This document shows, in pieces, positions 4,932 to 29,430 of a DNA stretch of 45,986 bases. The translations under genes were made by a program, and so were the position numbers. A model generated the notes under the pieces. That model was not told the origin of the DNA, searched no databases, and worked only from the letters and a program-made list of their open reading frames with translations. The stretch covers positions 1 through 45,986 of the forward strand of contig DAHUXW010000060.1 of NCBI GenBank assembly GCA_027306925.1, given 5' to 3'. Each line of letters opens with the position of its first letter. The stretch's first letter is position 1. Origin of the DNA: Acidimicrobiaceae bacterium (GTDB lineage Bacteria; Actinomycetota; Acidimicrobiia; Acidimicrobiales; Bog-793).

Positions 4932-5080
4932 ACTCCGCTGGTCGGATCGCCGGCCCGGCATGACGCATTCGCTCGCCGGGACACTGCTGGCGAACGCGTG
5001 AGCAGTAGCTACACGAAAGGTGCTGGGCGAAGTACTGCGTGCACATTGGGAGCCGGATCAGGCAACAGGGTGGGGGAACG

Positions 5081-6367: not shown

Positions 6368-6423
6368 GCGACCGCAGCAGCACTGCCTGATTGCTTTCGA
6401 GACGAAGCCGGGAGATCGCTTAC

Positions 6424-9120: not shown

Positions 9121-9868
9121 CGTCGCCACATCGGGAGCGGCGGTGCGCAGCACGAGCGCGCCCTCGCTCGTGCTCGACCGCGTGAGCGCCGGCTACGGGG
9201 GCGCCGCGGTCATCGAAGACGTCTCGTTCTCGGTCCGCTCCGGAGAGGTGGCCTGCGTCGTCGGCCCGAACGGCGCCGGCAAGTCGACGCTGCTCCGCGC
9301 GATCACCCGCGACGCCGTGCTGATCTCGGGGCGGATCCTCCTCGCGGGCGAGGACATCTCCGAGACCGCTGGCAACGACCTCGTTCGCCGAGGACTCGCA
9401 TGGGTGCCTCAGCTCGACGACGTCTTTCCGATCCTGACGGTGCGCGAGAACCTCGAGCTCGGTGGCTACAGCCTCGACCGACGCCGGATGCGCGCTCGCG
9501 TAGAGGAGGTCGTGGCGATCTTCCCGCTGCTCTCGCGGCTCCTCGGTCGGGTCGCGGGCCAGTTGAGCGGTGGCGAGCGCAAGCTCCTCGCAATCGGCCG
9601 GGCGCTCATGCCAGGCCCTTCGGCCGTGCTGCTCGACGAGCCGACCGCCGGCCTCTCCCCGGAGATGACCCAGCTCGTGCTCAACACCCACGTCGAGGAA
9701 TTGCGCCAGAGTGGAGTGGCGGTGCTGCTCGTCGAGCAGCGCGCGCTCGAAGCGATCGCCGTGTCCTCGGAGGTCCACGTGATGGTCGACGGCAGGCTCA
9801 GGGTCTCGAAGCAGGCGCGCCTTCTCACCGACGGCGAGGAGCTCGCCCGTCTGTTCCTCGGCGAGTAG
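9110..9868 (+). CDS. LivF-type ABC ATPase
   Basis: GPNGAGKSTLLRAI, LSGGERKLLAIGRALMPGPSAVLLDEPTAGLSP. Confidence 0.92.
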   Translation: MSADVATSGAAVRSTSAPSLVLDRVSAGYGGAAVIEDVSFSVRSGEVACVVGPNGAGKSTLLRAITRDAVLISGRILLAGEDISETAGNDLVRRGLAWVPQLDDVFPILTVRENLELGGYSLDRRRMRARVEEVVAIFPLLSRLLGRVAGQLSGGERKLLAIGRALMPGPSAVLLDEPTAGLSPEMTQLVLNTHVEELRQSGVAVLLVEQRALEAIAVSSEVHVMVDGRLRVSKQARLLTDGEELARLFLGE

Positions 9869-10212: not shown

Positions 10213-10359
10213 AGACTCTGCCGGTCGCATGCACGAGAGGACGAGCACCGCATCGGCCGTACTGCAGGGGAATCGTTGGGACAGACCCACACGGCAACGC
10301 TCTCGGCGAACGCACGAGTGGCGGGACGGGGGTCGACGGAGCAGTTGAAGGAGCCACGC

Positions 10360-11433
10360 ATGCGCGCAATCCTCCGTGGAGGACCAATCATGGCGGTATC
10401 GGCAGCTGCGGCTGTCGCGATCGCGGGAATCGCAGTCGTGCCGTCGTCGGCATCGCCGACGACGGCGGCGAAGGCAAGGGCCGGGGTGAAGGTCACGAAG
10501 ATCGCGATCGCACTGCCGGCGAAGCCCACCGACTACGGCTGGAACCAGCAGGGGCTCGACGCCGCGAAGTCGGTCGCGAGCTCGGTCGGCGCGAAGCTGA
10601 CGACGATCTCGAACATCGGCTACAACAACACCCAGTCGATCCTGTCCCAGCTCGCGCAATCCGGCGCGCAGTTCATCATCGCCCACGCGAGCGGGTACGA
10701 CACCGCGGCGAAGCAGGTCGCGTTGCGCTACCGGGTCCCGGTGATGACCTACGACGTCCCGAACGAGCTCGTGCCCGGTCTCGTCTCGACGATCACGACG
10801 TCGGCGGAGCAGGGCGGCTACCTCGCCGGCATCCTCGCCGCGAAGGAGACCAAGACGGGCACGGTGGGGATCGTCATCTCCGCGAGTGACTCGAACTGGT
10901 TCGAGATGAGCGGTGGCTTCGCCGCCGGCGTGGCGAGCGTCAACAAGAAGATCAAGGTGCGCTTCGCGGAGATCGGCCCGGCGTCCTACGACGACTCGGC
11001 CGGTGGTAAGCGGGTCGCGAGCACGTTGATCTCGGCCAACGCCGACGTGATCTTCGGGATGGGTGACGACGCCTCGTTCGGCTACCTCCAGGCCGTGTCG
11101 ACCGCCAAGGCCGGCCACAAGGTCTGGTACATCGGCGACATCGGCAACATGGGGCCGATCGACAAGCAGCACGTGCTGCTGTCCTCCGAGATCTGGTCGT
11201 TCACGAAGGTCTTCAAGCAGGCCGTTACGGACATCCAGAACGGCACCTACGGGAAGCACGCGTACAACCTGACCCTCGGCAACGGCGGCATCTCGATGCT
11301 GAAGACGCAGTACATCTCGGCTCCGGTGTGGGCACAGATGCAGGCGGCGAAGGCGAAGATCGTCTCGGGTGCGATCAAGGTTCCCGTCGCGCTGACCCTC
11401 GGCGCGGTCAAGAAGCTCGTCGCGGCAGCCTGA
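10360..11433 (+). CDS. BMP/Med/PnrA-family ABC substrate-binding protein
   Basis: KIAIALPAKPTDYGWNQQGLDAAKSVASSVGAKLTTISNIGYNNTQSILSQLAQSGAQFIIAHASGYD...; RBS gaaggag before ATG 10360. Confidence 0.88.
   Translation: MRAILRGGPIMAVSAAAAVAIAGIAVVPSSASPTTAAKARAGVKVTKIAIALPAKPTDYGWNQQGLDAAKSVASSVGAKLTTISNIGYNNTQSILSQLAQSGAQFIIAHASGYDTAAKQVALRYRVPVMTYDVPNELVPGLVSTITTSAEQGGYLAGILAAKETKTGTVGIVISASDSNWFEMSGGFAAGVASVNKKIKVRFAEIGPASYDDSAGGKRVASTLISANADVIFGMGDDASFGYLQAVSTAKAGHKVWYIGDIGNMGPIDKQHVLLSSEIWSFTKVFKQAVTDIQNGTYGKHAYNLTLGNGGISMLKTQYISAPVWAQMQAAKAKIVSGAIKVPVALTLGAVKKLVAAA
10440..10466. repeat. Perfect 12-bp inverted repeat inside the BMP signal-peptide region
   Basis: GCCGTCGTCGGC-ATC-GCCGACGACGGC. 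Confidence 0.6.
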
Positions 11434-11459
11434 GCGGGTCGCGAGAGCTAGAGACATCG

Positions 11460-13103
11460 ATGGCCGACGGAGCGCTGGGGGCAGGCATGTCGCCGACTGA
11501 CCCCGGCGCTCCGGCCGTCGAGCTGGTGGGAATATCCAAGCAGTTCCCCGGCGTGCTGGCGAACGACGACGTGCATCTCGCCGTCCGCCGGGGCGAGGTG
11601 CACTGTCTGCTCGGCGAGAACGGTGCCGGCAAGTCCACCTTGATCAGCATCCTCTCGGGGATGCAGCGCCCGGACTCCGGGACGATACTGATCGACGGCG
11701 AGCCCGCGAGGATCCGATCGCCGCGCGACGCGCTCAAGATGGGCATCGGGACCGTCTACCAGCACTCGACGCTCATCCCGGCGCTGAGCGTCCTCGAGAA
11801 CCTCATGCTCGGCGAGAGCCGCAGGATCGTGCTCGACCGGGGACGCGCTCGGGCGCGCATGGCGGAGATCGCGAAGATGCTGGGCGTCGAGGTGGACCCG
11901 GACGCACGCACCGGCGATCTCGCGCTCGGCCGCCAGCAACAGGTCGAGATCATCTCCGCGCTCTGGAAGGGATCGCGGGTCCTCGTGCTCGACGAGCCGA
12001 CCTCGATGCTCACGCCCCAAGGCGTCGAGGAGCTCGAGAAGGTGCTGGTGCAGCTAAAGCAGCAGGGAACGGCGATCATCTTCATCACGCACAAGCTCCA
12101 CGAGGCGCTGGCGGTGAGCGACCGCATCACGATCCTCCGCCGGGGCCGCGCCATCGGGGAGCTTTCGAGCGAGGAGATCCGGTCCTCGACCCCGGAGCAG
12201 AACCGGGCGACGATCGTCCGCCTCATGTTCGGCGACGCGACCGACATCGGCGACGCCCCCGAGCTGCAGACGCGCATCGAGGACGTGGAAGACCTCGGCG
12301 CACGTCGTCTCACGATCGCGGCGGGCGACGAGGAGGAGCCGATCCTCGAGCTCAAGTCGGTGTCGGCGCCCGGCGACGGCCTGGAACCCGGGATCGTCGA
12401 CGTCAGCATGAAGGTGCGGGCCGGGCAGATCCTCGGAGTCGCAGGCATCGACGGCAACGGCCAACGCGCGCTCGCAGAGACCATCGCTGGGCAGCGGCGC
12501 GCGCGCACGGGCTCCGTCGAGCTGTTCGGCACTCCCGTGAACCGTCTCGGCGTGTCCGCGCGCCAGAAGCTCGGTCTGCGCTACGTCACCGACGACCGGC
12601 TCGGCGAGGGGATCGTCCGGAACCTGAGCGTGTCGATCAACCTGTTGCTGAAGCGCATCGGCGAGCAGCCGTTCTGGCGCCGCGGCCGCATCGACGCGCG
12701 CAAGGTCAACGCCGCGGCTCTCGAGCTCGTCGCCGAGTACGACATCCGGACGCCGGGCATCGCGACCCGTGCCGGCACGCTCTCCGGTGGCAACATCCAG
12801 AAGCTGCTCCTCGCACGCGAGCTGTCGCTCGGTCCGAAGGTCGTCGTGTTCAACAAGCCGACGTACGGCCTCGACCTGCGCACGACGGAGAACGTGCGTG
12901 AGGTCATCCGGCGCCTTACCGCCGAGGGAGCGGGTGCCGTGCTCATATCGACGGACCTCGACGAGCTGCTCGAGCTCGCGGGAGAGATCGTCGTGCTCTC
13001 GAGAGGGCGCCTCGTCGGCACGGTCCAGAACGGGCGGGATGCCGCGGAGCGCATCGGCGCGCTCATGATCGGCGACGGCGACTCCCCCGGTGCGGTCGCA
13101 TGA
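11460..13103 (+). CDS. Double-NBD ABC ATPase of BMP/nucleoside-type importer (YufO-like)
   Basis: Two NBDs: GENGAGKSTLISILSGMQRPDSG and degenerate second domain GIDGNGQRALAETIAGQ...LSGGNIQKLLLARELS. Confidence 0.9.
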   Translation: MADGALGAGMSPTDPGAPAVELVGISKQFPGVLANDDVHLAVRRGEVHCLLGENGAGKSTLISILSGMQRPDSGTILIDGEPARIRSPRDALKMGIGTVYQHSTLIPALSVLENLMLGESRRIVLDRGRARARMAEIAKMLGVEVDPDARTGDLALGRQQQVEIISALWKGSRVLVLDEPTSMLTPQGVEELEKVLVQLKQQGTAIIFITHKLHEALAVSDRITILRRGRAIGELSSEEIRSSTPEQNRATIVRLMFGDATDIGDAPELQTRIEDVEDLGARRLTIAAGDEEEPILELKSVSAPGDGLEPGIVDVSMKVRAGQILGVAGIDGNGQRALAETIAGQRRARTGSVELFGTPVNRLGVSARQKLGLRYVTDDRLGEGIVRNLSVSINLLLKRIGEQPFWRRGRIDARKVNAAALELVAEYDIRTPGIATRAGTLSGGNIQKLLLARELSLGPKVVVFNKPTYGLDLRTTENVREVIRRLTAEGAGAVLISTDLDELLELAGEIVVLSRGRLVGTVQNGRDAAERIGALMIGDGDSPGAVA

Positions 13104-13149
13104 CGACGGGCGCCCGGCTGCGCGAAGCGCGCGAGGCGGAGGTCCGAGC

Positions 13150-14316
13150 GTGGCGATAGCGGCCGAGGACCGGGCTGCTGCGCCCGCGCCGCCGGCGCCG
13201 CCGCCCGCGCGGACGGCGACCGGGCGCGGCCAGATGGTCGTCCTCACCTTCGTGCGCTCGCTCGTCCCGGTCGTGCTCGCGCTGCTCGCGGGCGCGGTGC
13301 TGCTGCTCGTGCTCGGGCGCAGCCCCGTACGCTTCTACTCCGACGTCTGGCGCTACGGCGTCGAGCTGAACAACTGGCAGAACAGCGCGGTCCTCATGGC
13401 CCCGCTGCTGCTCATGGCGGCGGCGCTCGTCGTGGTGTTCCGGGCCAACATCTGGAACCTCGGCTACGACGCGCAGTACCTGCTCGGAGCGGTGTTCGTC
13501 GTCGGCTACGGGCCGTGGATGTTCGCGCACTTCCCGCGACCGGTCGCGTACGCCGTGCTGTTCGTCATCGCCGGGCTGGCCGGAGCGATCTGGACGATCG
13601 TCCCGGCGCTGCTTCGCGCCTACTTCGGCACGAACGAGATCATCACGACGCTCATGATGTCGTTCATCGGCATCGACGTCGCGAACATCCTCGTCAAGGG
13701 TCCGTTCCAGGACCCGACGGTCACGATTCCGCAGACCAAGACGATCCCGTACAACGACATGCTCCCGAACATCCCCGGCACGCACATCCACGTCGGGTTC
13801 CTCGTCGCGCTCGGCATCGTGCTCGTGCTGCACTACCTGCTCACGCGCACGTCGTTCGGCCTGAGGCTGCAGGTGTTCGGCGAGAACCCGAAGGCCGCCC
13901 GCCACGTCGGCATCAACGTGCGGCGCCTCATCATCTCGTCGTTCCTCTGGAGCGGCTTTCTCATCGGCGTCTCCGCAGCAGTCGACATCCTCGGGCTGTG
14001 GTCGTACGTGCGGTCCAACTGGAACCCGAGCTACGGCAATACGGTGATCCCGTTCGTCTTCCTCGCGAGGCTGAACCTCCTCGCGGTCATCCCGTTCGTC
14101 GCGTTCTACGCGGTGCTGTCGACCGGCGGCGACCTCGCGACGCAGGCCGTCAGCCTGCCGACGGACTTCCTGCTCGTGATCGTCGCCCTCATCTTGTTGT
14201 TCATGACGATCATCGAGTTTCTCGGCCGGCGCCGTGAGCTCGGCCAGAGCTACCTGACCAAGGGGCTCAGGGAGGCCCTGCGCCAACCGCTCGTCCGGCG
14301 GAGGAGGTCCCCATGA
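13150..14316 (+). CDS. ABC permease (YufP-like)
   Basis: MAAALVVVFRANIWNLGYDAQYLLGAVF...FGTNEIITTLMMSFIGIDVANILVKGPFQDP; BPD_transp_2 type. Confidence 0.88.
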   Translation: MAIAAEDRAAAPAPPAPPPARTATGRGQMVVLTFVRSLVPVVLALLAGAVLLLVLGRSPVRFYSDVWRYGVELNNWQNSAVLMAPLLLMAAALVVVFRANIWNLGYDAQYLLGAVFVVGYGPWMFAHFPRPVAYAVLFVIAGLAGAIWTIVPALLRAYFGTNEIITTLMMSFIGIDVANILVKGPFQDPTVTIPQTKTIPYNDMLPNIPGTHIHVGFLVALGIVLVLHYLLTRTSFGLRLQVFGENPKAARHVGINVRRLIISSFLWSGFLIGVSAAVDILGLWSYVRSNWNPSYGNTVIPFVFLARLNLLAVIPFVAFYAVLSTGGDLATQAVSLPTDFLLVIVALILLFMTIIEFLGRRRELGQSYLTKGLREALRQPLVRRRRSP

Positions 14317-15269
14317 CCGCTGTCCTGGCCGCGGCCTCGGGACTGTTCACGCAGTCGTTCGTGACCGCCCTCATCGCGGGTGGGGTGCTCGCGTCCATCC
14401 CGCTCATGTTCACGGCGGTGGGCGAGGCGATCTCCGAGCGCTCGGGCGTGTTGAACATCGGCCTCGAGGGCATGATGCTCGTCGGCGCGTACACGGGCTT
14501 CCTCGGCGCGTACGAGGCGCACTCGATGTGGGTGGGCTTCCTCACCGGAGCGCTCGGCGGCGGCGTCGCCGCCGCGTTGATGGTCGTGCTGAGCGTCCGA
14601 ATGGGCCTCGACCAGATCGTCATCGGGATCGCGATCACGCTTGCGGGCGAGGGGATCACGAGCGTCCTGCAGCAGGCGCAGTTCGGCGGCGCCTACCCCC
14701 GGCTGCCCGCGTACCCGCAGGTCGCGATCCCCGGTCTCGACTCGATCCCCATACTCGGCAAGAGCCTGTTCGACCAGCCCCTCGTCGTCTACTTCGGTCT
14801 CGGCCTCGTCGCCGCGGTCGCGTGGATGTTCAGCAGGACCCGCTGGGGCCTCGAGCTGCGGGCCGCGGGGGAGAAGCCGGAAGCTCTCGACGCGGCGGGC
14901 GTGAGCGTCCTGAACACCCGCAGCTACGCGACGCTCGCGACCGGGGCGCTCGCGGGAGTCGGCGGGGCCTACCTCTCCGTGATCGCGGCCGGGACCTTCA
15001 CGCCGTTCATGACCCAGGGCCAGGGTTACATGGCGATCGTCATCGCGATGCTCGCGAGGGGGCGCCCGGTCTGGGTCGCGGTCGCATCGTTCGTCTTCGG
15101 TATCTCGCTGTCGCTGTCGACGGCGCTTCAGCTCACCGGGATCAACATCTCGGCCGACGTGATCAACATGCTGCCGTTCGCGGCGATCATGCTCGCGCTC
15201 GTCATCTTCGCCCGCAGCGCCTACCTTCCGCCCGCGCTCGCAGTGCCGTACGTGCGCGGTGCGCGCTAG
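14313..15269 (+). CDS. ABC permease (YufQ-like)
   Basis: IPLMFTAVGEAISERSGVLNIGLEGMMLVGAYTGFLGAYEA; 4-bp overlap with the previous permease. Confidence 0.88.
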   Translation: MTAVLAAASGLFTQSFVTALIAGGVLASIPLMFTAVGEAISERSGVLNIGLEGMMLVGAYTGFLGAYEAHSMWVGFLTGALGGGVAAALMVVLSVRMGLDQIVIGIAITLAGEGITSVLQQAQFGGAYPRLPAYPQVAIPGLDSIPILGKSLFDQPLVVYFGLGLVAAVAWMFSRTRWGLELRAAGEKPEALDAAGVSVLNTRSYATLATGALAGVGGAYLSVIAAGTFTPFMTQGQGYMAIVIAMLARGRPVWVAVASFVFGISLSLSTALQLTGINISADVINMLPFAAIMLALVIFARSAYLPPALAVPYVRGAR

Positions 15270-15343: not shown

Positions 15344-16519
15344 GTGACGACGATGCGTGAGGTGGACTTCACACTCTCGGCGGGGCCGACGGCGGCGAGC
15401 GCGCGGACGCTCGCGGCACTCGGCTCGCCGATCACCTACCACTACGACCCGGAGTTCCTCGACGCGTTCCGGCGCACGGAGCGCAAGGTCGCGTCGATCT
15501 TCCGCACCGAGAGCTCCGTGGTGATGATGCAGGGCGAGGCCGTGCTCGGGCTCGAGGCCGCGGCGCGCGGGCTCGTGCGCCCCGGCGACAAGGTGCTCAA
15601 CCTCGTGTCCGGCGTCTTCGGCAAGGGCATGGGGATGTGGTTGACGGACTTCGGTGCCGACCTCCACGAGATCGAGGTTCCCTACGACGACGTCATCGAC
15701 CCGGGCGACGTCGAGCGGTTCCTCGAGAGCAACCCCGACACGACGATGGTCGCGGTCGTGCACTGCGAGACGCCGTCGGGAACCGCGACGGACGTCGCGT
15801 CGATCGGCCGGATCGCCGCGGCACGGGGCGTGCTGACGCTCGTCGACTGCGTGTCGAGCGTGGGCGGCATGGCGTTCGAGGTCGACGAGTGGGGCCTCGA
15901 CGTCTGCGTGCTCGGTCCGCAGAAGTGCCTCGGCGGCCCGCCGGGGATGTCGCTCATGTCCGTGAGCGAGCGCGCGTGGGAGGTGATGGAGAAGAACCCC
16001 CAGGCCCCGAGAGGCTCGTTCCTCTCGCTGCTCGACTGGAAGCGGACCTGGTTCGGCGAGGGCCGGTTCCCGTTCACGCCGTCGGTGGTCGACGTCCACG
16101 GCGTCGAGTCCGTGTGCGACCAGATCCTCGAGGAGGGCGTCGACGCGTCGATCGCCCGCCATGCGGCCGCCGCGAGCGCGTGCCGAGCGGGCGTGGCGGC
16201 GATGGGGCTCAGGATCTGGCCCCGCTCGGAGGCGATCGCAGCGAACTGCGTGACCTCGATCGCGGTGCCCGACGGTCTCGACCACGACCGGATCCGCAGC
16301 CACGCCCGGGAGCGCTACGGGGTGATGCTCTCCGGGGGCCAGGGGGCCGGGAACCTCGTGCGCATCGGTCACATGGGCCCGACCGCTAACGGCCTCCACC
16401 CGGTGGTCGGCCTCCTCGCGCTCGGGCGCTCCCTTCTCGACATGGGCGCGCACGTCGACGTGGGGGCCGGTGTCGAAGCGGCGCTCGCGTCGATCGCGGC
16501 GCGGTCGGGTGCCTCGTGA
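15344..16519 (+). CDS. Class V PLP aminotransferase, probable pyridoxamine-pyruvate aminotransferase
   Basis: SAGPTAASARTLAALGSPITYHYDPEFLDAF...GEAVLGLEAAARGLVRPGDKVLNLVSGVFGKGMGMW...HCETPSGT...LGPQKCLGGPPGMSLMSVSERAW...RIGHMGPTA; pattern matches recalled M. loti PPAT rather than generic serine-glyoxylate aminotransferases. Confidence 0.78.
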   Translation: MTTMREVDFTLSAGPTAASARTLAALGSPITYHYDPEFLDAFRRTERKVASIFRTESSVVMMQGEAVLGLEAAARGLVRPGDKVLNLVSGVFGKGMGMWLTDFGADLHEIEVPYDDVIDPGDVERFLESNPDTTMVAVVHCETPSGTATDVASIGRIAAARGVLTLVDCVSSVGGMAFEVDEWGLDVCVLGPQKCLGGPPGMSLMSVSERAWEVMEKNPQAPRGSFLSLLDWKRTWFGEGRFPFTPSVVDVHGVESVCDQILEEGVDASIARHAAAASACRAGVAAMGLRIWPRSEAIAANCVTSIAVPDGLDHDRIRSHARERYGVMLSGGQGAGNLVRIGHMGPTANGLHPVVGLLALGRSLLDMGAHVDVGAGVEAALASIAARSGAS

Positions 16520-16666: not shown

Positions 16667-17701
16667 GTGGAATTCGGCGTAAATCTCAACAACCGTGAGC
16701 CGTTGATCGCACCGGCCTACACGCTGTCGGACCTGCTGCAGCTCGCGGTGGTCGCCGAAGACGTCGGGTTCGACTCCATCTGGGTCGGAGACAGCCTGTT
16801 CTCGAAGCCGCGCTACGAGCCGCTCAACTTGATGTCGGCGCTGTCGCAACGCACCTCGCGGGTGCGGATCGGCACCGCTTGCCTCGTCACCTCGACCCGC
16901 AACCCGCTCTACCTCGCCCTCGAGTGGGCGACGATGGACCACCTGTCGAACGGCCGCTCCATCCTCGGCGCCTGCATGGGCAATCCAGAGGTCGGCGTGA
17001 AGCGCGAGTTCGCGGCGCTCGGGCTCGACTTCGCGGACCGCGCGACGATCTTCGAGGAGGGCCTCGCGGTGCTGCGGGCCCTGTGGACCGAGGGCAGCGT
17101 CAACTACCGCGGCAAGTACTACACGTACGAGGACGTCGCGTTCCACTCGGGCACCGAGATGGCGCCGCTCATGCCGCTTCAGAAGCCGCCGCCCACCTGG
17201 GTCGTGTCGAACATCCGGCTCACCGGCGATCTCGACCCGGGCGTCGCGAGCCGCCGGCTCGAGCGCGCGTGCGACCGGGTCATCCGCTACGGCGACGGCT
17301 GGATGACCTGCTGTCGCGCGGAGCACCCGGAGGAGGTCGTCGAACAGGTCGCCCAGCTGCGCACCGCCGCGGCGAAGCTCGAGACGGACTTCGACCGCTA
17401 TGTGGTCTCGTACCAGGTGACGATGAACATCGGCGACTCCAAGGAGAAGGCCCGTGAGGCCTTCGGCAACTACATCGGTGCCTACTACCCCGAGCTGTCG
17501 AAGGCCGTCGACCTGTCCAACTGGGGTCCGGTCGGGAACCCCGACACGATCGTCGAGTGGTTCATGAAGTTCCGGCAGGCCGGTGTCGACCACTTCGTCT
17601 GCCGCTTCGGCGACATGGACCAGTTCGCCCAGGTCGAACGCTTCGCGAACGAGATTCTCCCCGTCCTGCGGGCGAACGACGTCGAGATCAGCGCCCACTA
17701 A
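16667..17701 (+). CDS. LLM-class (luciferase-like) flavin-dependent oxidoreductase
   Basis: GTG start after ggggaagagg; VEFGVNLNNREPLIAPAYTLSDLLQLAVVAEDVGFDSIWVGDSLFSKPRYEPLNLMSALSQRTSRVRIGTACLVTSTRNPLYLALEWATMDHLSNGR. Confidence 0.9.
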   Translation: MEFGVNLNNREPLIAPAYTLSDLLQLAVVAEDVGFDSIWVGDSLFSKPRYEPLNLMSALSQRTSRVRIGTACLVTSTRNPLYLALEWATMDHLSNGRSILGACMGNPEVGVKREFAALGLDFADRATIFEEGLAVLRALWTEGSVNYRGKYYTYEDVAFHSGTEMAPLMPLQKPPPTWVVSNIRLTGDLDPGVASRRLERACDRVIRYGDGWMTCCRAEHPEEVVEQVAQLRTAAAKLETDFDRYVVSYQVTMNIGDSKEKAREAFGNYIGAYYPELSKAVDLSNWGPVGNPDTIVEWFMKFRQAGVDHFVCRFGDMDQFAQVERFANEILPVLRANDVEISAH

Positions 17702-17721: not shown

Positions 17722-18744
17722 ATGTCCGTGAACGAGCAGGTGCGCACCGAAGCCGAGATGCGCGCGGCGGCCGAACTCGTCGTCGACGTGTGCTTCGAGG
17801 TCAAGGAAGGCGACACCGTCACGATCATCACCGACAACACCCGGAGCGAAGAGGCCGACATGGTGGCCACCGTCGTCTCCGAGCGAGGCGGCTGGCCGAT
17901 GATCGCGAACAACGACACCCAGGTGCGGCGGTGCCTCACGGACACGTTGTTCCCGATGGCGCCACCGAAGCAGCTGCACACCGCGATCGTGAACTCCGAC
18001 GACATCATCATCATGACGAACCTCGAATGGGCCAATCGCTTCGCCCACGTGTCCGCGGTGAAGCAGGCGTGCGCGCACCACTCGCGCATCGGCTCGGTCG
18101 AGGAGGGCTTCGGCCGCTGGCCGATCTCCGTGGACGACATCCGCCGCACGATCTCCAACGCGCAGGCGGCGATCAAGCTGCTCGAGGGCAAGAAGCGCGT
18201 GCGGGTCACCTCGCCTGCCGGGACGGACGTCGAGGTGAGCATCGAGGGCAGGCCCGCGCTCGAGGTCGTCCCCGTGAAGCAGCCGGGGGCGATGATGGGC
18301 CCGCTGCCCCTGTGGGGCGAGGTCGCGTACGGTGCCGTCGAGACCGAGACCGAGGGCACGATCGTCGTCGACGGGAACCTTCTCGGGGTCGGGGTTCCGG
18401 GGAACGTCGAGAATCCCGTCACGTGGCACATCGAGAACGGCCGATACACGTCGATAGAGGGGAAGTGGGAGGCGGAGCGGCTCCTGAACGCGATCAGCGG
18501 CGTGCCGGGCACCGAGGTCGTCGCGGAGTTCGCGTTCGGGACGAGCGACTACGCGCCGCTGATCGGCCCGTCGTCGAAGGGGCGCAAGGGAACCGCGCAC
18601 TTCGCTCTCGGCGACAACCAGAACTGCTACCCGGGCGGTCAGAACACGAGCTCGTTGCACCTCGACGGCGTCAACCACAACATCTCCATCCAGATCGTCG
18701 ACACCGGTGAGTACATCGTCAAGGAAGGCGTCTGGCAGCTATGA
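17722..18744 (+). CDS. M29 aminopeptidase / NicX-like (COG2309-type) metalloenzyme
   Basis: RBS aaggaggtcaccATG; EGTIVVDG..., AEFAFGTSDYA, GTAHFALGDN and SSLHLDGVNH metal-ligand-like motifs shared by M29 peptidases and 2,5-dihydroxypyridine dioxygenase NicX. Confidence 0.75.
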   Translation: MSVNEQVRTEAEMRAAAELVVDVCFEVKEGDTVTIITDNTRSEEADMVATVVSERGGWPMIANNDTQVRRCLTDTLFPMAPPKQLHTAIVNSDDIIIMTNLEWANRFAHVSAVKQACAHHSRIGSVEEGFGRWPISVDDIRRTISNAQAAIKLLEGKKRVRVTSPAGTDVEVSIEGRPALEVVPVKQPGAMMGPLPLWGEVAYGAVETETEGTIVVDGNLLGVGVPGNVENPVTWHIENGRYTSIEGKWEAERLLNAISGVPGTEVVAEFAFGTSDYAPLIGPSSKGRKGTAHFALGDNQNCYPGGQNTSSLHLDGVNHNISIQIVDTGEYIVKEGVWQL

Positions 18745-19121
18745 CGGGCGCGCGCACCCGGGCGATCGGTCTGGAGGACGTGGCGCCGATCGAGCTGCGC
18801 CACGACAGCTGGTCGAGAGTGCTCGTGAGCGACAAGACGGTCGACGACAACCACGCGTCCCTCGGCTACTCGGTCTTCGGGCCCGGCCTCGTGACCGCGG
18901 ACCTGTCGCACTCGGTGGACGAGCTGTGCTTCGTGGTGTCCGGCATCGGTGTGATCCGGCTCGAGGACGAGGAGGTCGCGGTGCGCGCGCACAGCGGCCT
19001 CTACATCCCTGCCAAGGTCTGGCACACGGTCGTGAACGAGGGCGACGAGGACCTCGTCATGGTCTTCACGTTCCCGTGGCCGGACTACCCTCCGACCGAG
19101 CGCCGGGACGCGAGGACTTGA
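18741..19121 (+). CDS. Cupin-domain protein
   Basis: LSHSVDELCFVVSGIGVIRLEDEEVAVRAHSGLYIPAKVWHTVVNEGDEDLVMVF. Confidence 0.85.
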   Translation: MTGARTRAIGLEDVAPIELRHDSWSRVLVSDKTVDDNHASLGYSVFGPGLVTADLSHSVDELCFVVSGIGVIRLEDEEVAVRAHSGLYIPAKVWHTVVNEGDEDLVMVFTFPWPDYPPTERRDART

Positions 19122-19867
19122 GCGTCCTCGGTGACCTCGAGCTGACCACCGGTCTCGCGCCGAGATCCGCCGACGAGGCGCGCCGGCAGGTGGCCGCCGC
19201 GTGCCGTATCGTCGCGCGCTACGGCCACGAGGACCTGACGCTCGGCCACGTGAGCGTCCGTGGCCCCGGCGAGCACGAGGTGTACATCAAGGCGAAGGGC
19301 AAGGCGCTCGGCGAGGTCACGCCCGACGACGTCATGCTCGTGCGCCTCGACGATCCCGAGGGGCACCTCGCGCCCGGCGCGCACCTCGAGACCGTCATGC
19401 ACACCGAGACCTACCGCGCGCGTCCGGACGTGAGCGCCGCGATCCACACCCACGCCGTCTACGCGACGGCGCTCGGCGCGACCGTGTCGTCGCTCGAGTA
19501 CCTCTCCCACGACGCGGTGCTGTTCAACGACGGTGTCGGCCTGTACAACGCGTCCGTCGGCATGGTCATGACCCGCGACGACGGCCGTGCGGTCGCGGAC
19601 GCGCTGGGCGGCCACCGCGCGGTCCTGCTGCAGAACCACGGCATGCTCGCCGTCGGCGAGGACATCCGCTGGGCCGTGCTCTCGGCGCTGACGCTGGAGC
19701 GCGCGGTGCGTGTCCAGGTGCTCGCGAGCTCGCTCGGCGAGTTCACCCCGATCCCGGCGGCGAGCGTCGACGAGATCCATCTCACGAAGTACCAGTCGGC
19801 CTTCCTCGACGAGTACTGGTCCGCCTGGGTCAGGAAGCTCCCGAGCGCGAGCGAGGGCCGGCGGTGA
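19118..19867 (+). CDS. Class II aldolase/adducin-fold protein; candidate 3-hydroxy-2-methylpyridine-4,5-dicarboxylate decarboxylase
   Basis: GHEDLTLGHVSVRGPGEHEVYIKAKGKALGEVTPDDV...AAIHTHAVYATALGA...LLQNHGMLAVGE; TTG start overlapping the cupin stop. Confidence 0.72.
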   Translation: MSVLGDLELTTGLAPRSADEARRQVAAACRIVARYGHEDLTLGHVSVRGPGEHEVYIKAKGKALGEVTPDDVMLVRLDDPEGHLAPGAHLETVMHTETYRARPDVSAAIHTHAVYATALGATVSSLEYLSHDAVLFNDGVGLYNASVGMVMTRDDGRAVADALGGHRAVLLQNHGMLAVGEDIRWAVLSALTLERAVRVQVLASSLGEFTPIPAASVDEIHLTKYQSAFLDEYWSAWVRKLPSASEGRR

Positions 19868-20343
19868 GCGAGACGATCTCCGCGATCGTGAACGGCCGAG
19901 CATTCGACGGGGAGGTGGAGGCCAACGAGCTCCTGCTCGACTTCCTCCGCGATCGGCTCGGGCTGATCGGCGTGCGCCAGTCGTGCGAGGTCCAGGTGTG
20001 CGGAACCTGCACGGTGCTCGTCGACGGCAGCCCGGTGAGCTCGTGCTGCTTTCTCGCCTGCGACGTCGACGGGAAGGTCGTGGAGACGATCGAAGGTCTC
20101 GTGGGGACGCCCTTCCACGACGAGATCAGCGAAGCGTTCGTGCGCCACGCGGCGGTGCAGTGCGGCTTCTGCACCCCCGGGATGCTGCTCACCGCGAAGG
20201 CACTGATGGGCACGACCGACCTCGCCTCGGAAGCAGCGGTGCGCCACGCGATGGCGGGCAACCTTTGCAGGTGCACCGGGTACCGGTCGATCCTCGACGC
20301 GCTGATGGAGGTGTTCGATGCCCACGATCCGACGCGCGCGTGA
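19864..20343 (+). CDS. Molybdenum hydroxylase small (2x[2Fe-2S]) subunit
   Basis: SCEVQVCGTCTVLVDG, VQCGFCTPGMLLTAKAL, GNLCRCTGYRSI. Confidence 0.93.
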   Translation: MSETISAIVNGRAFDGEVEANELLLDFLRDRLGLIGVRQSCEVQVCGTCTVLVDGSPVSSCCFLACDVDGKVVETIEGLVGTPFHDEISEAFVRHAAVQCGFCTPGMLLTAKALMGTTDLASEAAVRHAMAGNLCRCTGYRSILDALMEVFDAHDPTRA

Positions 20344-20352
20344 GGTCGCGCC

Positions 20353-22665
20353 GTGACCCGGCTGTCCGAGACGCCAGGTAGGGTCGGGACGGCAGTCGGT
20401 CTCAGCGTCGAGCGGGTCGACGCGCGCGACAAGCTCGCCGGCAAGGCCGAGTTCACGGGAGACCTGCACCCTCCCTTCATGCTCTACGGTGCCGTGCTTC
20501 GCAGCCCGTACGCGCACGCGCTCATCGAGCACCTCGACGTGCGCGGCGCGCAGGACATCGACGGCGTGGTCGCGGTCCTCACCGGCGACGACCTCTCCGA
20601 CATCGACCCCTACTACGGGCACGCGCTGCGCGACCGTCCGGTCGTCGCGATCGGCAAGGTCCGCTTCGTCGGCGAGCCCGTCGCAGTCGTCGCCGCGGTG
20701 ACCCAGGCGATCGCGGACGCCGCGCTCGCGGCGATCGAGGTGAGCTACGAGCCGCTAGAGGTCGCGGCGTCCGTCGACGCGGCGCTCGCGCCGGGGGCAC
20801 CGCTCATCCACGAGGGCGCGGTCAGGCCCGGCCTCGCGCACGGCCTCGGCACCCTCCCAGAGCGCGAGGGCAACATCTGCTACAGCTACGGCTTCAGCCG
20901 CGGCGACACGGCGTCCGCCTTCGACACGGCGGCGGTCGTCGTGGAGGGCGAGTACCGCTTCCCTGCCGTCTACCAGTACTCGATGGAGACGCACACGACG
21001 ATCGCGCACCACCGGGGCGACGACATCGTCGTGTGGTCGTCGTGCCAGCACCCGTTCCTCGTCCGCCAGGAGATCTCCGAGCTCTTCGGCCTTGCCCTCG
21101 ACCGCGTCGAGGTGATCGTGCCGTATCTCGGCGGCGGGTTCGGGAGCAAGTCCTACACGAAGATGGAGCCGCTCACGGTCGCGATGTCGCGCAAGGCCGG
21201 CCGGCCCGTGCGGATCCTCAACCGCGTCGACGAGTCCATGGTCACCACGCGGCGCCACAACATGAAGTGCCGGATGCGCACCGCGGCGGGCGCGGACGGC
21301 GAGCTCGTCGCGCGCGAGGTCGAGATGTGGCTGGACACCGGCGCGTACGCGGACAACGGTCCCCGGGTGACCGCGACCGCCGGCGACGCCGCACCCGGGC
21401 CGTACCGCTGGCGGGCCATGGACGTGAAGGCGCACTGCGTCTACACGACGACGAGCCCGTCGGGCTCGTACCGCGCGTTCGGCTCGACCCACGTCCAGTG
21501 GATCGGCGAGTCCCAGGTCGACGAGATCGCCCGGCGACTCGGACTGGACCGCCTCGAGGTGCGGCGCGCGAACCTGCTCGGTCGGGGCGAGGAGGTCCGT
21601 CCCGGTGCGAAGGGCGTCGACGCGGACCTGGTCGGCGACATCGAGAAGGTCGCGGCCGCGATCGACTGGGGCGCGCCACGTGGGCCGAACCGGGGCGTCG
21701 GGGTGTCCATCGGCCTGCTCGCCGCGGGAGCCCATCCGGTGTCGATGGCCACCGTGCGGCTCGGTCCCGACGGCGGCGTGACCGTCCTCGTCGGCACGAC
21801 CGAGCTCGGCCAGGGCGCGCGCACGGTCATGGGCCAGATCGCGGCGGAGGTCCTCGGCCTCGAGTCGTCGCGCGTGCGTGTGATCGGCACCGACACGGCC
21901 TACACGCCCTACGACCGGTCGACCGGGGCGAGCCGCTCCACCACCGTCGCGGGCAAGGCCGTCGAGGAGGCCGCGCTCGACGTCCTCGACGCCCTGCTCG
22001 AGACCGCGGCCGACGTGCTCGAGGTCGACCGTGAGCAGCTCACGATCGGCGGCGGGGCGGTCGCGGGAGGTGGCCGGACGATGAGCTACGAGCAGCTCGT
22101 CCAGAAGCGGTTCGGCCTCGCGGGCGGCGAGCTCATCGGCCACGGCCGGGTCCAGCCGCGAGGCGGCAGCGGGGGCTTCGCCGACGGGCCGGTCTTCTGG
22201 GAGATCTGTGTCGCCGGCGCCGAGGTCGAGGTCGACACCGAGACCGGCGTCGTGACCGTGCTGCGCACCTCCAGCGTCGCGGACGTCGGCCGGGCGATCA
22301 ACCCGCAGCTCATCGAGCGCCAGGACGAGGGCGGGGCCCTCCAGGGCATCGGCAACGCGATGTTCGAGGAGATGCGCTTCAACGACGACGGGCTGCTGCT
22401 CAACGACACGCTCCTCGACTACCGCATCCCGTCGTTCGAGGACGTCCCGGCCTCGATGGCCTGCACGATCGTCGAGAACGGCGACGGCCCCGGCCCGTTC
22501 GGTGCGAAGGGCTGCGGCGAAGGGGTGCTCGCGGGCCTTCCCGCGGCGATCGTGAACGCGCTCGCCGACGCGGGCGTCGCGATGACCGAGCTCCCGCTCA
22601 CGCCCGAACGGGTGTGGAACCAGATCCAGAAACAGCGGACCGTAGAACCGAAGGAGAGAACATGA
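20353..22665 (+). CDS. Molybdenum hydroxylase large (Mo-pterin) subunit, xanthine dehydrogenase family
   Basis: VDARDKLAGKAEFTGDL, GGGFGSKSYTKMEPL, GSYRAFGSTHVQ, TTELGQGARTVMGQIAAEVLG, GAKGCGEGVLAGLPAAIVNAL (putative catalytic Glu). Confidence 0.93.
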   Translation: MTRLSETPGRVGTAVGLSVERVDARDKLAGKAEFTGDLHPPFMLYGAVLRSPYAHALIEHLDVRGAQDIDGVVAVLTGDDLSDIDPYYGHALRDRPVVAIGKVRFVGEPVAVVAAVTQAIADAALAAIEVSYEPLEVAASVDAALAPGAPLIHEGAVRPGLAHGLGTLPEREGNICYSYGFSRGDTASAFDTAAVVVEGEYRFPAVYQYSMETHTTIAHHRGDDIVVWSSCQHPFLVRQEISELFGLALDRVEVIVPYLGGGFGSKSYTKMEPLTVAMSRKAGRPVRILNRVDESMVTTRRHNMKCRMRTAAGADGELVAREVEMWLDTGAYADNGPRVTATAGDAAPGPYRWRAMDVKAHCVYTTTSPSGSYRAFGSTHVQWIGESQVDEIARRLGLDRLEVRRANLLGRGEEVRPGAKGVDADLVGDIEKVAAAIDWGAPRGPNRGVGVSIGLLAAGAHPVSMATVRLGPDGGVTVLVGTTELGQGARTVMGQIAAEVLGLESSRVRVIGTDTAYTPYDRSTGASRSTTVAGKAVEEAALDVLDALLETAADVLEVDREQLTIGGGAVAGGGRTMSYEQLVQKRFGLAGGELIGHGRVQPRGGSGGFADGPVFWEICVAGAEVEVDTETGVVTVLRTSSVADVGRAINPQLIERQDEGGALQGIGNAMFEEMRFNDDGLLLNDTLLDYRIPSFEDVPASMACTIVENGDGPGPFGAKGCGEGVLAGLPAAIVNALADAGVAMTELPLTPERVWNQIQKQRTVEPKERT

Positions 22666-23588
22666 CGATTCCGAAGACGATCGCGGTCATCGGTGCCGGG
22701 ACGATGGGGCCCGGCATCGCGGCGACGCTGTCCCGATGCGGGTCGAACGTCCGGCTGAACGACGTCGACGGCGCCGTTCTCGAGCGCTCGAAGGCGGCGA
22801 CCGAGCTCGCGTCGCAGGTCCTCGGGCGGCTCGACGCGCCGGAGGCGCCCGGCGGCTCGGTCAGCTTCGAGCTCGATCTCGAGAAGGCGTGCGCCGGGGC
22901 CGACCTCGTCATCGAGGCGGTGCCCGAGAAGCTCGCGCTGAAGCGCGAGATCTTCGCGAGGTTCGAGCAGGCCGTCGCGGCGGACACGGTCCTCGCGACG
23001 AACACGTCGGGGATCCCGATCTCCGACATCGCGGCCGAGCTCGCGCACCCCGAGCGCGTCATCGGCATGCACTGGTCCAACCCGCCGCACCTGATCCCGA
23101 TGATCGAGGTGGTGCCCGGCGAGAAGACGTCGGCGGCCGTCGTCGAGCAGCTCGTCGCCACGATCAAGGCGTTTGGCTTCGAGCCGGTCGTCGAGAAGGA
23201 GGTTCCCGGCTTCGTCGAGAACCGGATCCTCTACGCGATCCTCCGCGAGTGCGTGTCGCTCGTCGAGCGCGGCGTCGTCACCCAGGCCGACATGGACACG
23301 GCGGTGAAGTGGGGGATCGGCTACAAGCTCGCGGTCATCGGCCCGATGCGCCTGCTCGACATGGCCGGGCTCGACATCTACCAGAGCGTCGCCAGCTACC
23401 TCAATCGGGACCTGTGCAACGACGCGGAGGTCGCGTCGCTCGTCACCGACAAGACGGCCGCCGGAAAGCTCGGGATGAAGTCGCTCGGCGGCATGTACGA
23501 CTACGCGGACCAGGACGACGTCAACGCCAACCGCGCGAGGATCGTCGCCGGGCTCGTCGCGGTCCGCAAGACGCTCTCGGCGCTCTAG
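22662..23588 (+). CDS. 3-hydroxyacyl-CoA dehydrogenase family; probable FHMPC dehydrogenase
   Basis: IAVIGAGTMGPGIAATLSRCG...GMHWSNPPHLIPMIEVVPGEKT...EVPGFVENRILYAILRECVSLVERGVVTQADMDTAVKWGIGYKLAVIGPMRLLDMAGLDIYQSVASYLN; strongly resembles recalled M. loti FHMPC dehydrogenase. Confidence 0.82.
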   Translation: MTIPKTIAVIGAGTMGPGIAATLSRCGSNVRLNDVDGAVLERSKAATELASQVLGRLDAPEAPGGSVSFELDLEKACAGADLVIEAVPEKLALKREIFARFEQAVAADTVLATNTSGIPISDIAAELAHPERVIGMHWSNPPHLIPMIEVVPGEKTSAAVVEQLVATIKAFGFEPVVEKEVPGFVENRILYAILRECVSLVERGVVTQADMDTAVKWGIGYKLAVIGPMRLLDMAGLDIYQSVASYLNRDLCNDAEVASLVTDKTAAGKLGMKSLGGMYDYADQDDVNANRARIVAGLVAVRKTLSAL

Positions 23589-23609: not shown

Positions 23610-24362
23610 ATGGCTCCGAAGAAGGTCTACATCCTCGACGGCGGTTCGCTCGTCATCGACCGCTCCCAGGTGCTGTGGCACATCGACGTCGGCACTCCCG
23701 TGCGCTTCCCCGTCTACAGCGTCCTCGTCGAGCACTCCGACGGGCTCGTGCTCTACGACACGGGCTACGACCTCGACCACGTGAACCGGGTGCTGCCGTT
23801 CGAGCAGCCGCTCCAGACCCCCGAGCAGTCGCTGACGGCGCAGCTCCGCCTGTGCGGCTTCGACCCGGAGCAGGTGGACGTCGTCGTGAACTCGCACTTC
23901 CACTTCGACCACGTCGGCGGGAACCGCTTCCTCACCGCGGCGACGACGCTCGTGTCGAAAGAGGAGCTCAGGCACGCGAAGGTGCCCGAGCCCTTCGAGC
24001 ACCTCGGCTACTCGGACCTCACGTTCGACTACCCGGGCGTGAAGTACGAGCGCGTGAGCGGCGACATCGAGATCGCCGACGGCGTCTGGCTGTTCGAGAC
24101 ACCCGGCCACACCGCGGGCCACTACTCGATGCTCGTCGAGATGGACGACGGGCCGTCCATGCTCTTCGCCGGCGACGCCGCGTACACCCACGAGAACCTG
24201 GAGCGCGAGATCATCGCGGGCTTCCACCTCGACCCGACGCAGTCGGTCCAGTCGATCAAGCGCCTGAAGCGGCTGGCGAAGCAGCACGGGGCCGAGATCT
24301 ACCCGTCGCACGAGATGGCAGCGTTCCAGACCTGGAAGCACGCCCCCAACTTCTACGCATGA
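23610..24362 (+). CDS. Metallo-beta-lactamase-fold lactonase, probable 4-pyridoxolactonase
   Basis: KVYILDGGSLVIDRSQVLWHID...VRFPVYSVLVEHSDGLVLYDTGYDLDHV...VLPFEQPLQ...VVNSHFHFDHVGGNRF...PFEHLGYSDLTF...TPGHTAGHYSMLVE; resembles recalled M. loti 4-pyridoxolactonase. Confidence 0.85.
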   Translation: MAPKKVYILDGGSLVIDRSQVLWHIDVGTPVRFPVYSVLVEHSDGLVLYDTGYDLDHVNRVLPFEQPLQTPEQSLTAQLRLCGFDPEQVDVVVNSHFHFDHVGGNRFLTAATTLVSKEELRHAKVPEPFEHLGYSDLTFDYPGVKYERVSGDIEIADGVWLFETPGHTAGHYSMLVEMDDGPSMLFAGDAAYTHENLEREIIAGFHLDPTQSVQSIKRLKRLAKQHGAEIYPSHEMAAFQTWKHAPNFYA

Positions 24363-24393: not shown

Positions 24394-25125
24394 ATGAGAC
24401 TGACTGACCGAGTCGCGATCGTCACCGGAGCCGGGCAGGGGATCGGCAGGGCGATCGCCGAGAAGCTCGCCGCCGAAGGCGCGCGGGTCGTCGTCGCGGA
24501 CATCAACGCGGAGACCGCCGCGTCGTGCGCGGCGGCGATCGGCGGCACCGCGCACCAGGTCGACGTCAGCGACGAGGCACAGGTCGCATCTCTCGTCGAG
24601 GCCACCGTCGCCCTCCACGGCAAGGTCGACGTCCTCGTCAACGACGCGGCGATCGTGCCCTTCACCGCGTGGGACGACATCGACTTCGCGGAGTGGCGGC
24701 GCATCATGTCGGTGAACCTCGACGGCACGTTCCTCACGTGCCGGGCGGTCTACCCGCACATGCGCGCCGCGGGCTACGGCCGGATCGTGAACCTCTGCTC
24801 GAACGTGATCGTCGCGGGCACCCCCAACCTCGCGCACTACGTGGCCTCGAAGGGCGGGATCTTCGGCTTCACGCGGGCGCTCGCGACCGAGCTCGGCCGG
24901 TACGGGATCACGGTCAACTCCGTCGCGCCCGGTCTCACCGCGAGCGAGGGCGTGCTCGGTTCGCCGCACGCGGACGCGTTCGACTTCGTCGTCGGGCTCC
25001 AGGCGATCCCGCGCCGCGGCCTTCCGAGCGACATCGCCCCGGTCGTGGCGTTCCTCGCGTCCGAGGAGGCCGGATGGGTGACCGGCTCGATGGTCGTCGC
25101 CGACGGCGGGCACACCCGCCACTGA
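24394..25125 (+). CDS. SDR oxidoreductase, probable pyridoxal 4-dehydrogenase
   Basis: VAIVTGAGQGIGRAIAEKLAAEGARVVVADINAE...NDAAIVPFTAWDDIDFAEWRRIMSVNLDGTFLTCRA...AGTPNLAHYVASKGGIFGFTRALATELGRYGITVNSVAPGL; resembles recalled M. loti pyridoxal dehydrogenase. Confidence 0.82.
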   Translation: MRLTDRVAIVTGAGQGIGRAIAEKLAAEGARVVVADINAETAASCAAAIGGTAHQVDVSDEAQVASLVEATVALHGKVDVLVNDAAIVPFTAWDDIDFAEWRRIMSVNLDGTFLTCRAVYPHMRAAGYGRIVNLCSNVIVAGTPNLAHYVASKGGIFGFTRALATELGRYGITVNSVAPGLTASEGVLGSPHADAFDFVVGLQAIPRRGLPSDIAPVVAFLASEEAGWVTGSMVVADGGHTRH

Positions 25126-25204: not shown

Positions 25205-26095
25205 ATGAAGTTGCCGCGGTTCGAGATCCACCGGCCCACGTCCTTCGCGGACGCGTCCCGCCTGCTCGTGGAGCTCGGAGACGACGCGGTCGCCGTGAAC
25301 GGTGGCACCGAGCTCCTGCTCACCATGAAGCTCGGCCTAGCCGTCTACGACCACCTCGTCGACCTGAAACGCGTCCCGGAGCTTCGTGTCCTCGCGCGGT
25401 CGGGGGACCGGCTGGCGATCGGTGCCGGGATGACCCATCGCGAGGTCGAGACGTCGCCGCTCGTGCGGGAGAGCTTCCCCGCGCTCGCGGCGATGCTCGC
25501 CGACGTCGCGAACGTGCGCGTCCGGTCGGTCGGGACGCTCGGCGGGAACCTGTGCTTCGCCGACCCGCACTCGGACCCCGCCACGTTCCTCGCCGCGACG
25601 GACGCCGTCGTGGTCACGGGCGGCGGCGGCGGAGCCCGGCGCGTGCCCGTCGGCCAGTTCGCGGTCGGTCCCTACGAGACCGTCCTCGAGTCGGGCGAGC
25701 TCCTCGCCGAGATCGAGGTGCCGCTCCCGGGGCCGGGGACCGGCGTCTCGCACGTGCGCATGAAGACGCACGAGCGCCCGACGGTGACGGTCGCGTCGAG
25801 GGTCGAGCTCTCCGCCGGCGTCGTCGTGGCGGCGCGCGTCGCGGTCGGGTCGGTCTGCAGCGTGCCCGTGGTCCCGGACACCGTGTCGGACCTGATCGGC
25901 GCCGCGCGGGAGGACTGGGACGCTCGGGTCGCCGCATGTGCCGCGGCGACCGCCGACGCCGTCGATCCGGTCGAGGACGCCGACGGCTCCACCGCCTACA
26001 AGCGCGCGCTCGTGGAGGTCTTCGTCCGTCGCGGCCTGCACCGGGCGCTCGCGTCCGCGGCGAGCTCCGGCGCGGCGGGAAGGTCGACGAGATGA
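25205..26095 (+). CDS. Molybdenum hydroxylase FAD-binding (medium) subunit
   Basis: LVELGDDAVAVNGGTELLLTMKLGLAVYDHLVDLKRVPEL...IGAGMTHREVE...VRSVGTLGGNLCFADPHSDPATFLAA. Confidence 0.92.
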   Translation: MKLPRFEIHRPTSFADASRLLVELGDDAVAVNGGTELLLTMKLGLAVYDHLVDLKRVPELRVLARSGDRLAIGAGMTHREVETSPLVRESFPALAAMLADVANVRVRSVGTLGGNLCFADPHSDPATFLAATDAVVVTGGGGGARRVPVGQFAVGPYETVLESGELLAEIEVPLPGPGTGVSHVRMKTHERPTVTVASRVELSAGVVVAARVAVGSVCSVPVVPDTVSDLIGAAREDWDARVAACAAATADAVDPVEDADGSTAYKRALVEVFVRRGLHRALASAASSGAAGRSTR

Positions 26096-26817
26096 AGCTC
26101 GCGGCGTCGTTCTCCGTTCCACTGCCCGTGGCGGACGCCTGGACGCTGCTCCAGGACATCGAGCGCGCGGCGACCTGGTTCCCGGGCGCGCGTCTCGAGT
26201 CCGTCGAGGGCGAGTCGTTCAAGGGCACCGTGCGGGTGAAGGTCGGCCCGATGATGGTCGACTACCGGGGAACGGCGCGGTTCGTCGAGCGCGACGAGAC
26301 CGCCTACCGGGTCGTGATCGAGGCGTCGGGGCGCGAGCAGCGAGGTTCGGGCACGGCGAAGGCACGCGCGGTCACGGCGCTCACGGCCGCGGGGGAGCGC
26401 ACCGACGTGTCCGTGTCGATCGACCTCGACGTGACGGGCCGGCCGGCCCAGCTCGGGCAGAGCCTCATGCAGGACATAGCGCAGCGCCTCGTCGGCGAGT
26501 TCTCGCACCGGATGGAGGCCGACCTGTCCGCTCACACGACGACCGACGAGCAGCCCGCGGCCGGAGGCGACGGCGCCGCCGCGCACGCGAGCGCCGCGGG
26601 TGGGCCCGTCGGACCGGGCGAAGCTCGAGGCGCGGCAGCCGGCCCCGCGCGCGGCTCCGGCGCGAGGGAGGACGACGTCCTCGACCTCGGTCGGATCGCC
26701 GGGCCGGCCGTGCTCCGCAAGGTGGCGCCGGTCCTGCTCGCGGTCGTGGTGGCCGCGCTGCTCCGGCGCTGGTTCACGTCGCGTCGCGCGGCGCCGCTCG
26801 CGAGGAGATGCCCATGA
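26092..26817 (+). CDS. CoxG-like SRPBCC protein with C-terminal membrane segment
   Basis: FSVPLPVADAWTLLQDIERAATWFPGARLESVEGESFKGTVRVKVGPMMVDYRGTARFVERDE...; C-terminal hydrophobic VLRKVAPVLLAVVVAALLRRW. Confidence 0.88.
   Translation: MKLAASFSVPLPVADAWTLLQDIERAATWFPGARLESVEGESFKGTVRVKVGPMMVDYRGTARFVERDETAYRVVIEASGREQRGSGTAKARAVTALTAAGERTDVSVSIDLDVTGRPAQLGQSLMQDIAQRLVGEFSHRMEADLSAHTTTDEQPAAGGDGAAAHASAAGGPVGPGEARGAAAGPARGSGAREDDVLDLGRIAGPAVLRKVAPVLLAVVVAALLRRWFTSRRAAPLARRCP

Positions 26818-27672: not shown

Positions 27673-29430
<1,758 letters not shown>

Follow-up and report, generated by a model that had tools for sequence, protein, structure and literature searches.

The gene at positions 17722-18744 of the window (the whole stretch of 45,986 nucleotides of an Acidimicrobiaceae contig analyzed here) encodes a protein of the M29/NicX superfamily whose residues fit neither the canonical M29 peptidases nor canonical NicX: the iron site of NicX is lost, and the M29 metal ligands are kept but the M29 catalytic Tyr and DE motif are gone. 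Since it is located in an operon for vitamin B6 degradation that contains no known ring-opening enzyme, it probably takes part in an undescribed mode of breaking the pyridine ring of this vitamin.

The gene starts with an ATG preceded directly by an AGGAGG site, and its stop codon overlaps the ATG of the following cupin gene. Full-length relatives with 70-93% identity are encoded at twelve further loci, and in the comparison with the nearest of them (locus L003) synonymous differences far exceed non-synonymous ones (pS 0.40, pN 0.047), which together mark this as a genuine gene on which strong purifying selection acts. The segments AEFAFGT, GTAHFALGDN and HLDGVNH, singled out in the earlier note, are all present in the 340 aa product and are largely invariant among 13 homologs in this identity range. 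The product matches PF02073 with 31.8 bits, above the cut-off, and none of the NCBIfam families. AlphaFold2, run on a shallow 13-member alignment, gave no usable model (mean pLDDT 41), and a search of viral contigs with two alignments of the sub-family returned zero relatives.

The vitamin B6 operon and its distribution

The proposal that the gene belongs to a pyridine-catabolic operon was borne out by family scans, which narrow the assignment to vitamin B6 degradation (Table 1). The FHMPC dehydrogenase and the pyridoxamine-pyruvate transaminase are the top family matches of their genes, both under the curated cut-offs. The class II aldolase-fold protein is a candidate HMPDC 4-decarboxylase whose substrate is assigned by context; it matches Mesorhizobium loti Mlr6791 (2z7b) with an E-value of 1e-16, and other aldolase-fold proteins score higher. 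The substrate of the molybdenum hydroxylase is likewise assigned from the operon context. The closest solved structures to the LLM protein are FGD and Mer, with RutA only among the weak matches, and it is probably F420-dependent; a gene for F420 ligase (PF01996; G000:C77:4822-5409) is present in 13 of the 13 genomes with the module that were checked, including those labelled Acidobacteria and Armatimonadetes, so that a reductive step before ring opening is possible.

Table 1. Features of the window with their positions, strands and supporting evidence
Feature	Positions	Strand	Basis
Zinc alcohol dehydrogenase	2601-3635	-	PF08240
VOC/glyoxalase protein	3632-4036	-	PF00903
BMP-type ABC transporter (binding protein, ATPase, two permeases)	10358-15269	+	translations; PF02653; syntenic in L003
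Pyridoxamine-pyruvate transaminase homolog	15344-16519	+	NF046070, 1.4e-133, 445 bits, below cut-off of 600
Luciferase-like (LLM) oxidoreductase	16667-17701	+	PF00296; start inferred from homologs
M29/NicX-superfamily protein, B6 clade (340 aa)	17722-18744	+	PF02073; alignment; tree
Codon of His109 (= NicX His105)	18046-18048	+	alignment
Codon of Glu200 (= AmpT metal ligand Glu250; NicX Phe194)	18319-18321	+	alignment
Codon of Glu269 (= AmpT Glu316; NicX His265)	18526-18528	+	alignment
Codon of Arg288 in B6-specific KGRK motif	18583-18585	+	alignment
Codon of His293 (= AmpT His345; NicX Leu300)	18598-18600	+	alignment
Codon of Gln300 (position of M29 catalytic Tyr352)	18619-18621	+	alignment; PMC7023490
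Codons of His313-Leu314-Asp315 (= AmpT His376/Asp378; NicX His318/Asp320)	18658-18666	+	alignment
Small cupin, invariant His, Glu, His	18741-19121	+	PF07883; alignment
Class II aldolase-fold protein	19118-19867	+	PF00596; start uncertain
2Fe-2S subunit, molybdenum hydroxylase	19864-20343	+	sequence motifs in translation; syntenic in all loci
Molybdopterin large subunit, xanthine dehydrogenase family	20353-22665	+	NF043082, 4e-145
FHMPC 5-dehydrogenase homolog	22662-23588	+	NF042925, 5.7e-123, 410 bits, below cut-off of 500
4-Pyridoxolactonase	23610-24362	+	NF047925, 396 bits, cut-off 325
Pyridoxal 4-dehydrogenase, SDR type	24394-25125	+	NF047923, 380 bits, cut-off 325
FAD subunit, molybdenum hydroxylase	25205-26095	+	PF00941; PF03450
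CoxG-like protein	26092-26817	+	PF06240
Amidohydrolase-2 family protein	26814-27542	+	PF04909; start inferred; only here and in L003

The genes for the LLM protein, the M29-like protein, the cupin, the class II aldolase, the 2Fe-2S subunit and the Mo subunit follow one another in a single order in all 14 contigs compared (L003-L014, L047 and L048, with L006 and L011 originating from one MAG). The phylum labels of the respective MAGs, which may be wrong, read Actinomycetes/Actinomycetota, Dormibacterota, Acidobacteria, Armatimonadetes or just "bacterium". Pyridoxolactonase is encoded on 9 of these contigs, and most of the remaining five visibly end inside the block. Among 297 evenly sampled genomes of Actinomycetota, a close form of the M29-like protein (at least 57% identity) occurs in three and pyridoxolactonase in five, and all three are within the five (hypergeometric probability 2e-6, uncorrected for kinship). 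The two genomes with the lactonase and no close M29 form are G262, whose contig with the remaining block genes (L071) starts within the cupin gene, and G187, where the lactonase lies in a different neighborhood (L070). Among 198 genomes of the window's order, the M29-like protein and pyridoxolactonase are both found in the same two.

The BMP-type ABC transporter is the likely importer of the operon; in relatives the module is adjoined instead by a permease (L004:5626-7080, L014:4933-6387, L005:3479-5032, L007:11067-12377 and L008:16343-17629), which matches the NCS1 family (PF02133) in L014 and L007 and looks alike in L004, L005 and L008, and such permeases are likely alternative vitamin B6 importers. 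Upstream of the BMP-type transporter the window has a second ABC transporter, of the branched-chain-amino-acid type (5039-9868, + strand), with no counterpart seen in the syntenic L003. A GroEL gene follows directly after the operon on the opposite strand (27673-29376, - strand), as it does in L003. The zinc alcohol dehydrogenase and the VOC/glyoxalase protein recur with the module (L004, L014, L048 and L071), and the former could provide the otherwise missing 4-pyridoxate oxidation step.

We found no ortholog of 2-methyl-3-hydroxypyridine-5-carboxylate (MHPC) oxygenase in 16 genomes (the window's own, 97.6% complete, and 15 others) searched with a sequence identical letter for letter to PDB 3alj, the best match elsewhere having 33% identity; in the window's genome, the three top-scoring FAD_binding_3 proteins have their matches in 4-hydroxybenzoate hydroxylase and geranylgeranyl/menaquinone reductases. 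A protein from an actinobacterial plasmid with 40.6% identity to the query was rejected as an alkylquinolone-pathway monooxygenase encoded beside aqdC1 and not a B6 gene, so even 40% identity is no sign of MHPC oxygenase. Within the operon, no acetamidomethylenesuccinate hydrolase was recognised, and family scans revealed no other known pyridine-ring-cleaving enzyme. As the search of genomes with the module found no MHPC oxygenase ortholog, a third lower route of B6 degradation is likely.

Kinship and active-site residues

The earlier note had assigned the protein to the same superfamily as NicX, and NicX (7cn3, sequence verified) is indeed its sole close solved relative. The single sequence as a query finds it with E=0.03; hhalign of the family gives 91.5% probability against NicX and 1.7% against AmpS, and a broad profile retrieves NicX with 1e-21 and PepS, AmpS and AmpT with 4e-12 (PepS) to 6e-9. 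In the tree, the B6 proteins form one clade (100/100) with a long stem inside a group of short forms, while AmpS and AmpT are placed apart (100/100). NicX also falls into the short-form group, on a very long branch and without a specific grouping with the B6 clade.

Residues were counted over 15 proteins of the B6 clade, 20 other short forms and 8 long forms. The ligands of AmpT (E250, E316, H345, H376 and D378) correspond to E200, E269, H293, H313 and D315, which are invariant in the B6 clade (15/15) and nearly so in the other short forms. At position 300, where M29 peptidases have the catalytic Tyr, 12 of the 15 B6 proteins have Gln and none has Tyr, nor does any examined short form; the EEHYHD motif of M29 reads EEHQHD in the window's protein. 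The conserved DE motif (DE[K/N]) preceding H345 is changed to GR (within KGRK) throughout the B6 clade, with Arg at position 288 in 15/15 as opposed to Glu in 18/20 other short forms and 8/8 long forms. In the tested M29 aminopeptidase LmAmpII, replacement of any of the six EEHYHD residues with Ala kills the activity, including Y352A (PMC7023490). The label of leucyl aminopeptidase, which the earlier note suspected to be in error, is therefore probably wrong, and aminopeptidase activity is improbable.

The Fe(II) ligands of NicX are His265, Ser302, His318 and Asp320, each of them essential, and its substrate residues are His105, Glu177 and His189 (PMC7910607). Only two of the four ligands are kept here (Glu269, Ala295, His313 and Asp315 at the respective positions). 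The replacement of His265 by Glu had been recognised before; the losses of Ser302, Glu177 and His189, and the retention of the five M29 ligands without the catalytic Tyr, go beyond that. The HxD pair, previously put forward as a likeness to NicX, does align with His318/Asp320, but it is common to all M29-fold proteins compared and so does not point to NicX. Among the substrate residues, His105 is kept as His109, found in 15/15 proteins of the B6 clade, 19/20 other short forms and 0/8 long forms (AmpS/AmpT type), while Glu177 and His189 are replaced by Val182 and Pro194 in a region that is less surely aligned. Arg293 of NicX, important like His105 and needed for iron binding, where it positions the metal Asp (PMC7910607), is paired by the profile alignment with the Glu position of the DE motif, i.e. 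with Arg288; MAFFT puts another NicX Arg there. With the Fe(II) center and the residues that bind dihydroxypyridine (DHP) not conserved, the description as a "NicX-like ring-cleaving enzyme" cannot be read from the sequence, and NicX-type Fe(II) chemistry is unproven.

A possible third route and competing explanations

By homology, the upper steps would lead from pyridoxamine via pyridoxal, 4-pyridoxolactone, 4-pyridoxate, FHMPC and HMPDC to MHPC; everything below MHPC is inferred, from the substrate and the metal to the reaction and the sequence in which the steps follow, whereas the gene content of the operon, its conservation, the missing MHPC oxygenase ortholog and the conserved residues were observed. 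Molybdenum hydroxylases are expected to attack a free carbon beside a ring nitrogen, and the enzyme of the operon may add a hydroxyl at C6 of MHPC. As the B6 ring already has a 3-OH group, the product would be a 2-pyridone that has the 2,5-dihydroxypyridine pattern as well as a methyl and a carboxylate group, chemically near the NicX substrate and also a hydrolysable lactam. The M29-fold protein might bind one or two divalent metals via E200, E269, H293, H313 and D315, hold the substrate carboxylate with the basic K286, R288 and R70, use His109 as acid/base, and hydrolyse the C-N bond of the lactam or of an amide made from it, with the LLM protein and the cupin acting directly before or after this step.

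We regard it as an even bet that uncultured bacteria of several phyla use such a third route for the B6 ring, in which MHPC oxygenase with its hydrolase gives way to the Mo hydroxylase, an F420-type LLM protein, the cupin and a novel subfamily of the M29 fold (EEHHD, no catalytic Tyr), and in which the member of this subfamily opens the pyridine ring or lactam. The specific role of a metal-dependent hydrolase that opens the ring of C6-hydroxylated MHPC or its amide product, in an undescribed lower branch, is put forward tentatively, at somewhat under even chances. Hydrolytic cleavage is favored over O2-dependent cleavage because all metallohydrolase ligands are kept and because the M29-like protein is the only hydrolase-fold protein without an assigned role in the conserved block; moreover, any pathway that uses the B6 ring must break C-N bonds. 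Against this role, the substitution of Gln300 for Tyr means that ordinary M29 hydrolysis is not expected, each EEHYHD residue being needed (PMC7023490), the overall sequence appears closer to NicX, an oxygenase, and the Arg that stands where the DE motif has Glu is reminiscent of NicX Arg293. The amidohydrolase encoded downstream, considered as a general hydrolase of the pathway, was not adopted, as it is present only here and in L003.

A NicX-type dioxygenase, with Fe(II) on H293/H313 and carboxylates and O2 cleaving the C5-C6 bond of 6-hydroxy-MHPC (2,5-dihydroxy-6-methylnicotinate, from the Mo hydroxylase) to an N-acetyl amide, is the main rival and, with the substrate corrected, the idea of the earlier note; we consider it rather doubtful. 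The proposed substrate has the exact 2,5-dihydroxypyridine core, no solved homolog is nearer than NicX, two of whose important residues (PMC7910607) have counterparts in His109 and probably in Arg288, and the operon offers no further known enzyme for ring cleavage; set against these are the exchange of essential Fe ligands and DHP-binding residues, an intact M29 ligand set that NicX has lost, the tree, and the small cupin, which could be the oxygenase instead. That cupin keeps its His/Glu/His and has a weak match to gentisate dioxygenase (E 0.017), and RutA, an LLM oxygenase that opens the uracil ring, is among the weak matches of the LLM protein. Either of the two might thus open the ring and leave to the M29-like protein another step, such as hydration, decarboxylation or isomerisation of the ring-opened acid, as the loss of the catalytic Tyr and DE motif would allow. 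We think this quite unlikely, for the LLM protein is closer to F420-dependent dehydrogenases/reductases than to RutA, and we know of no M29-fold member with such chemistry. A genuine leucyl aminopeptidase placed in the operon by chance would explain the PF02073 match and the five ligands, yet the Tyr is missing and the DE motif is GR in 15/15 proteins, and the gene has its fixed place in the block in 14/14 contigs and co-occurs with pyridoxolactonase; we rejected this explanation on the lost Tyr and DE motif and deem it highly improbable.

For vitamin B6, two degradation routes are on record (PMC3538738), and the catabolism of cofactors has been characterized as a largely unexplored field (PMC12746152). 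We found no earlier description of a route like the one proposed here in the open-access literature, and the operon makes it testable with defined substrates. Annotation pipelines likely call such proteins aminopeptidases and thereby hide the pathway.

Comparison with known systems

With NicX from Pseudomonas putida KT2440 (PDB 7cn3/7cnt/7cup) the M29-like protein shares the superfamily, the length (~340-350 aa), the HxD ligands, the His105 equivalent, perhaps an Arg in the Arg293 region, and presumably a place in pyridine degradation after the ring has been hydroxylated; it differs in the replaced His265/Ser302 and Glu177/His189, and in having the M29 ligands Glu200 and His293, which are absent in NicX. 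With the M29 aminopeptidases AmpT (2ayi), AmpS (1zjc) and PepS (4icq) it shares the five ligands E/E/H/H/D in the same order and the PF02073 match above cut-off, but those chains are longer (408-418 aa), retain Tyr352 and the DE motif where it has Gln and GR, and are separated from it in the tree (100/100). The B6 clade lies between hydrolytic peptidases and an oxygenase, with the peptidase ligands kept and the catalytic Tyr lost, which makes the conversion of a metallohydrolase fold into a ring-cleaving dioxygenase directly testable.

Short M29-like "aminopeptidases" of Actinomycetota (L020-L039, 22-36% identity) are similar in their EEHHD ligands, His109 equivalent, short length and absence of the catalytic Tyr, but they retain the acidic DE motif, in whose place the B6 clade has KGRK; Trp198 and a separate long stem (100/100) further set the clade apart. 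As these proteins, too, retain the metal ligands and the NicX-type His and have no M29 catalytic Tyr, many such "aminopeptidase" annotations are doubtful. MHPC oxygenase and acetamidomethylenesuccinate hydrolase of M. loti occupy the same metabolic slot, in which the ring is opened and nitrogen released once MHPC has been formed, but their folds (FAD monooxygenase and alpha/beta hydrolase) are unrelated to that of the M29-like protein.
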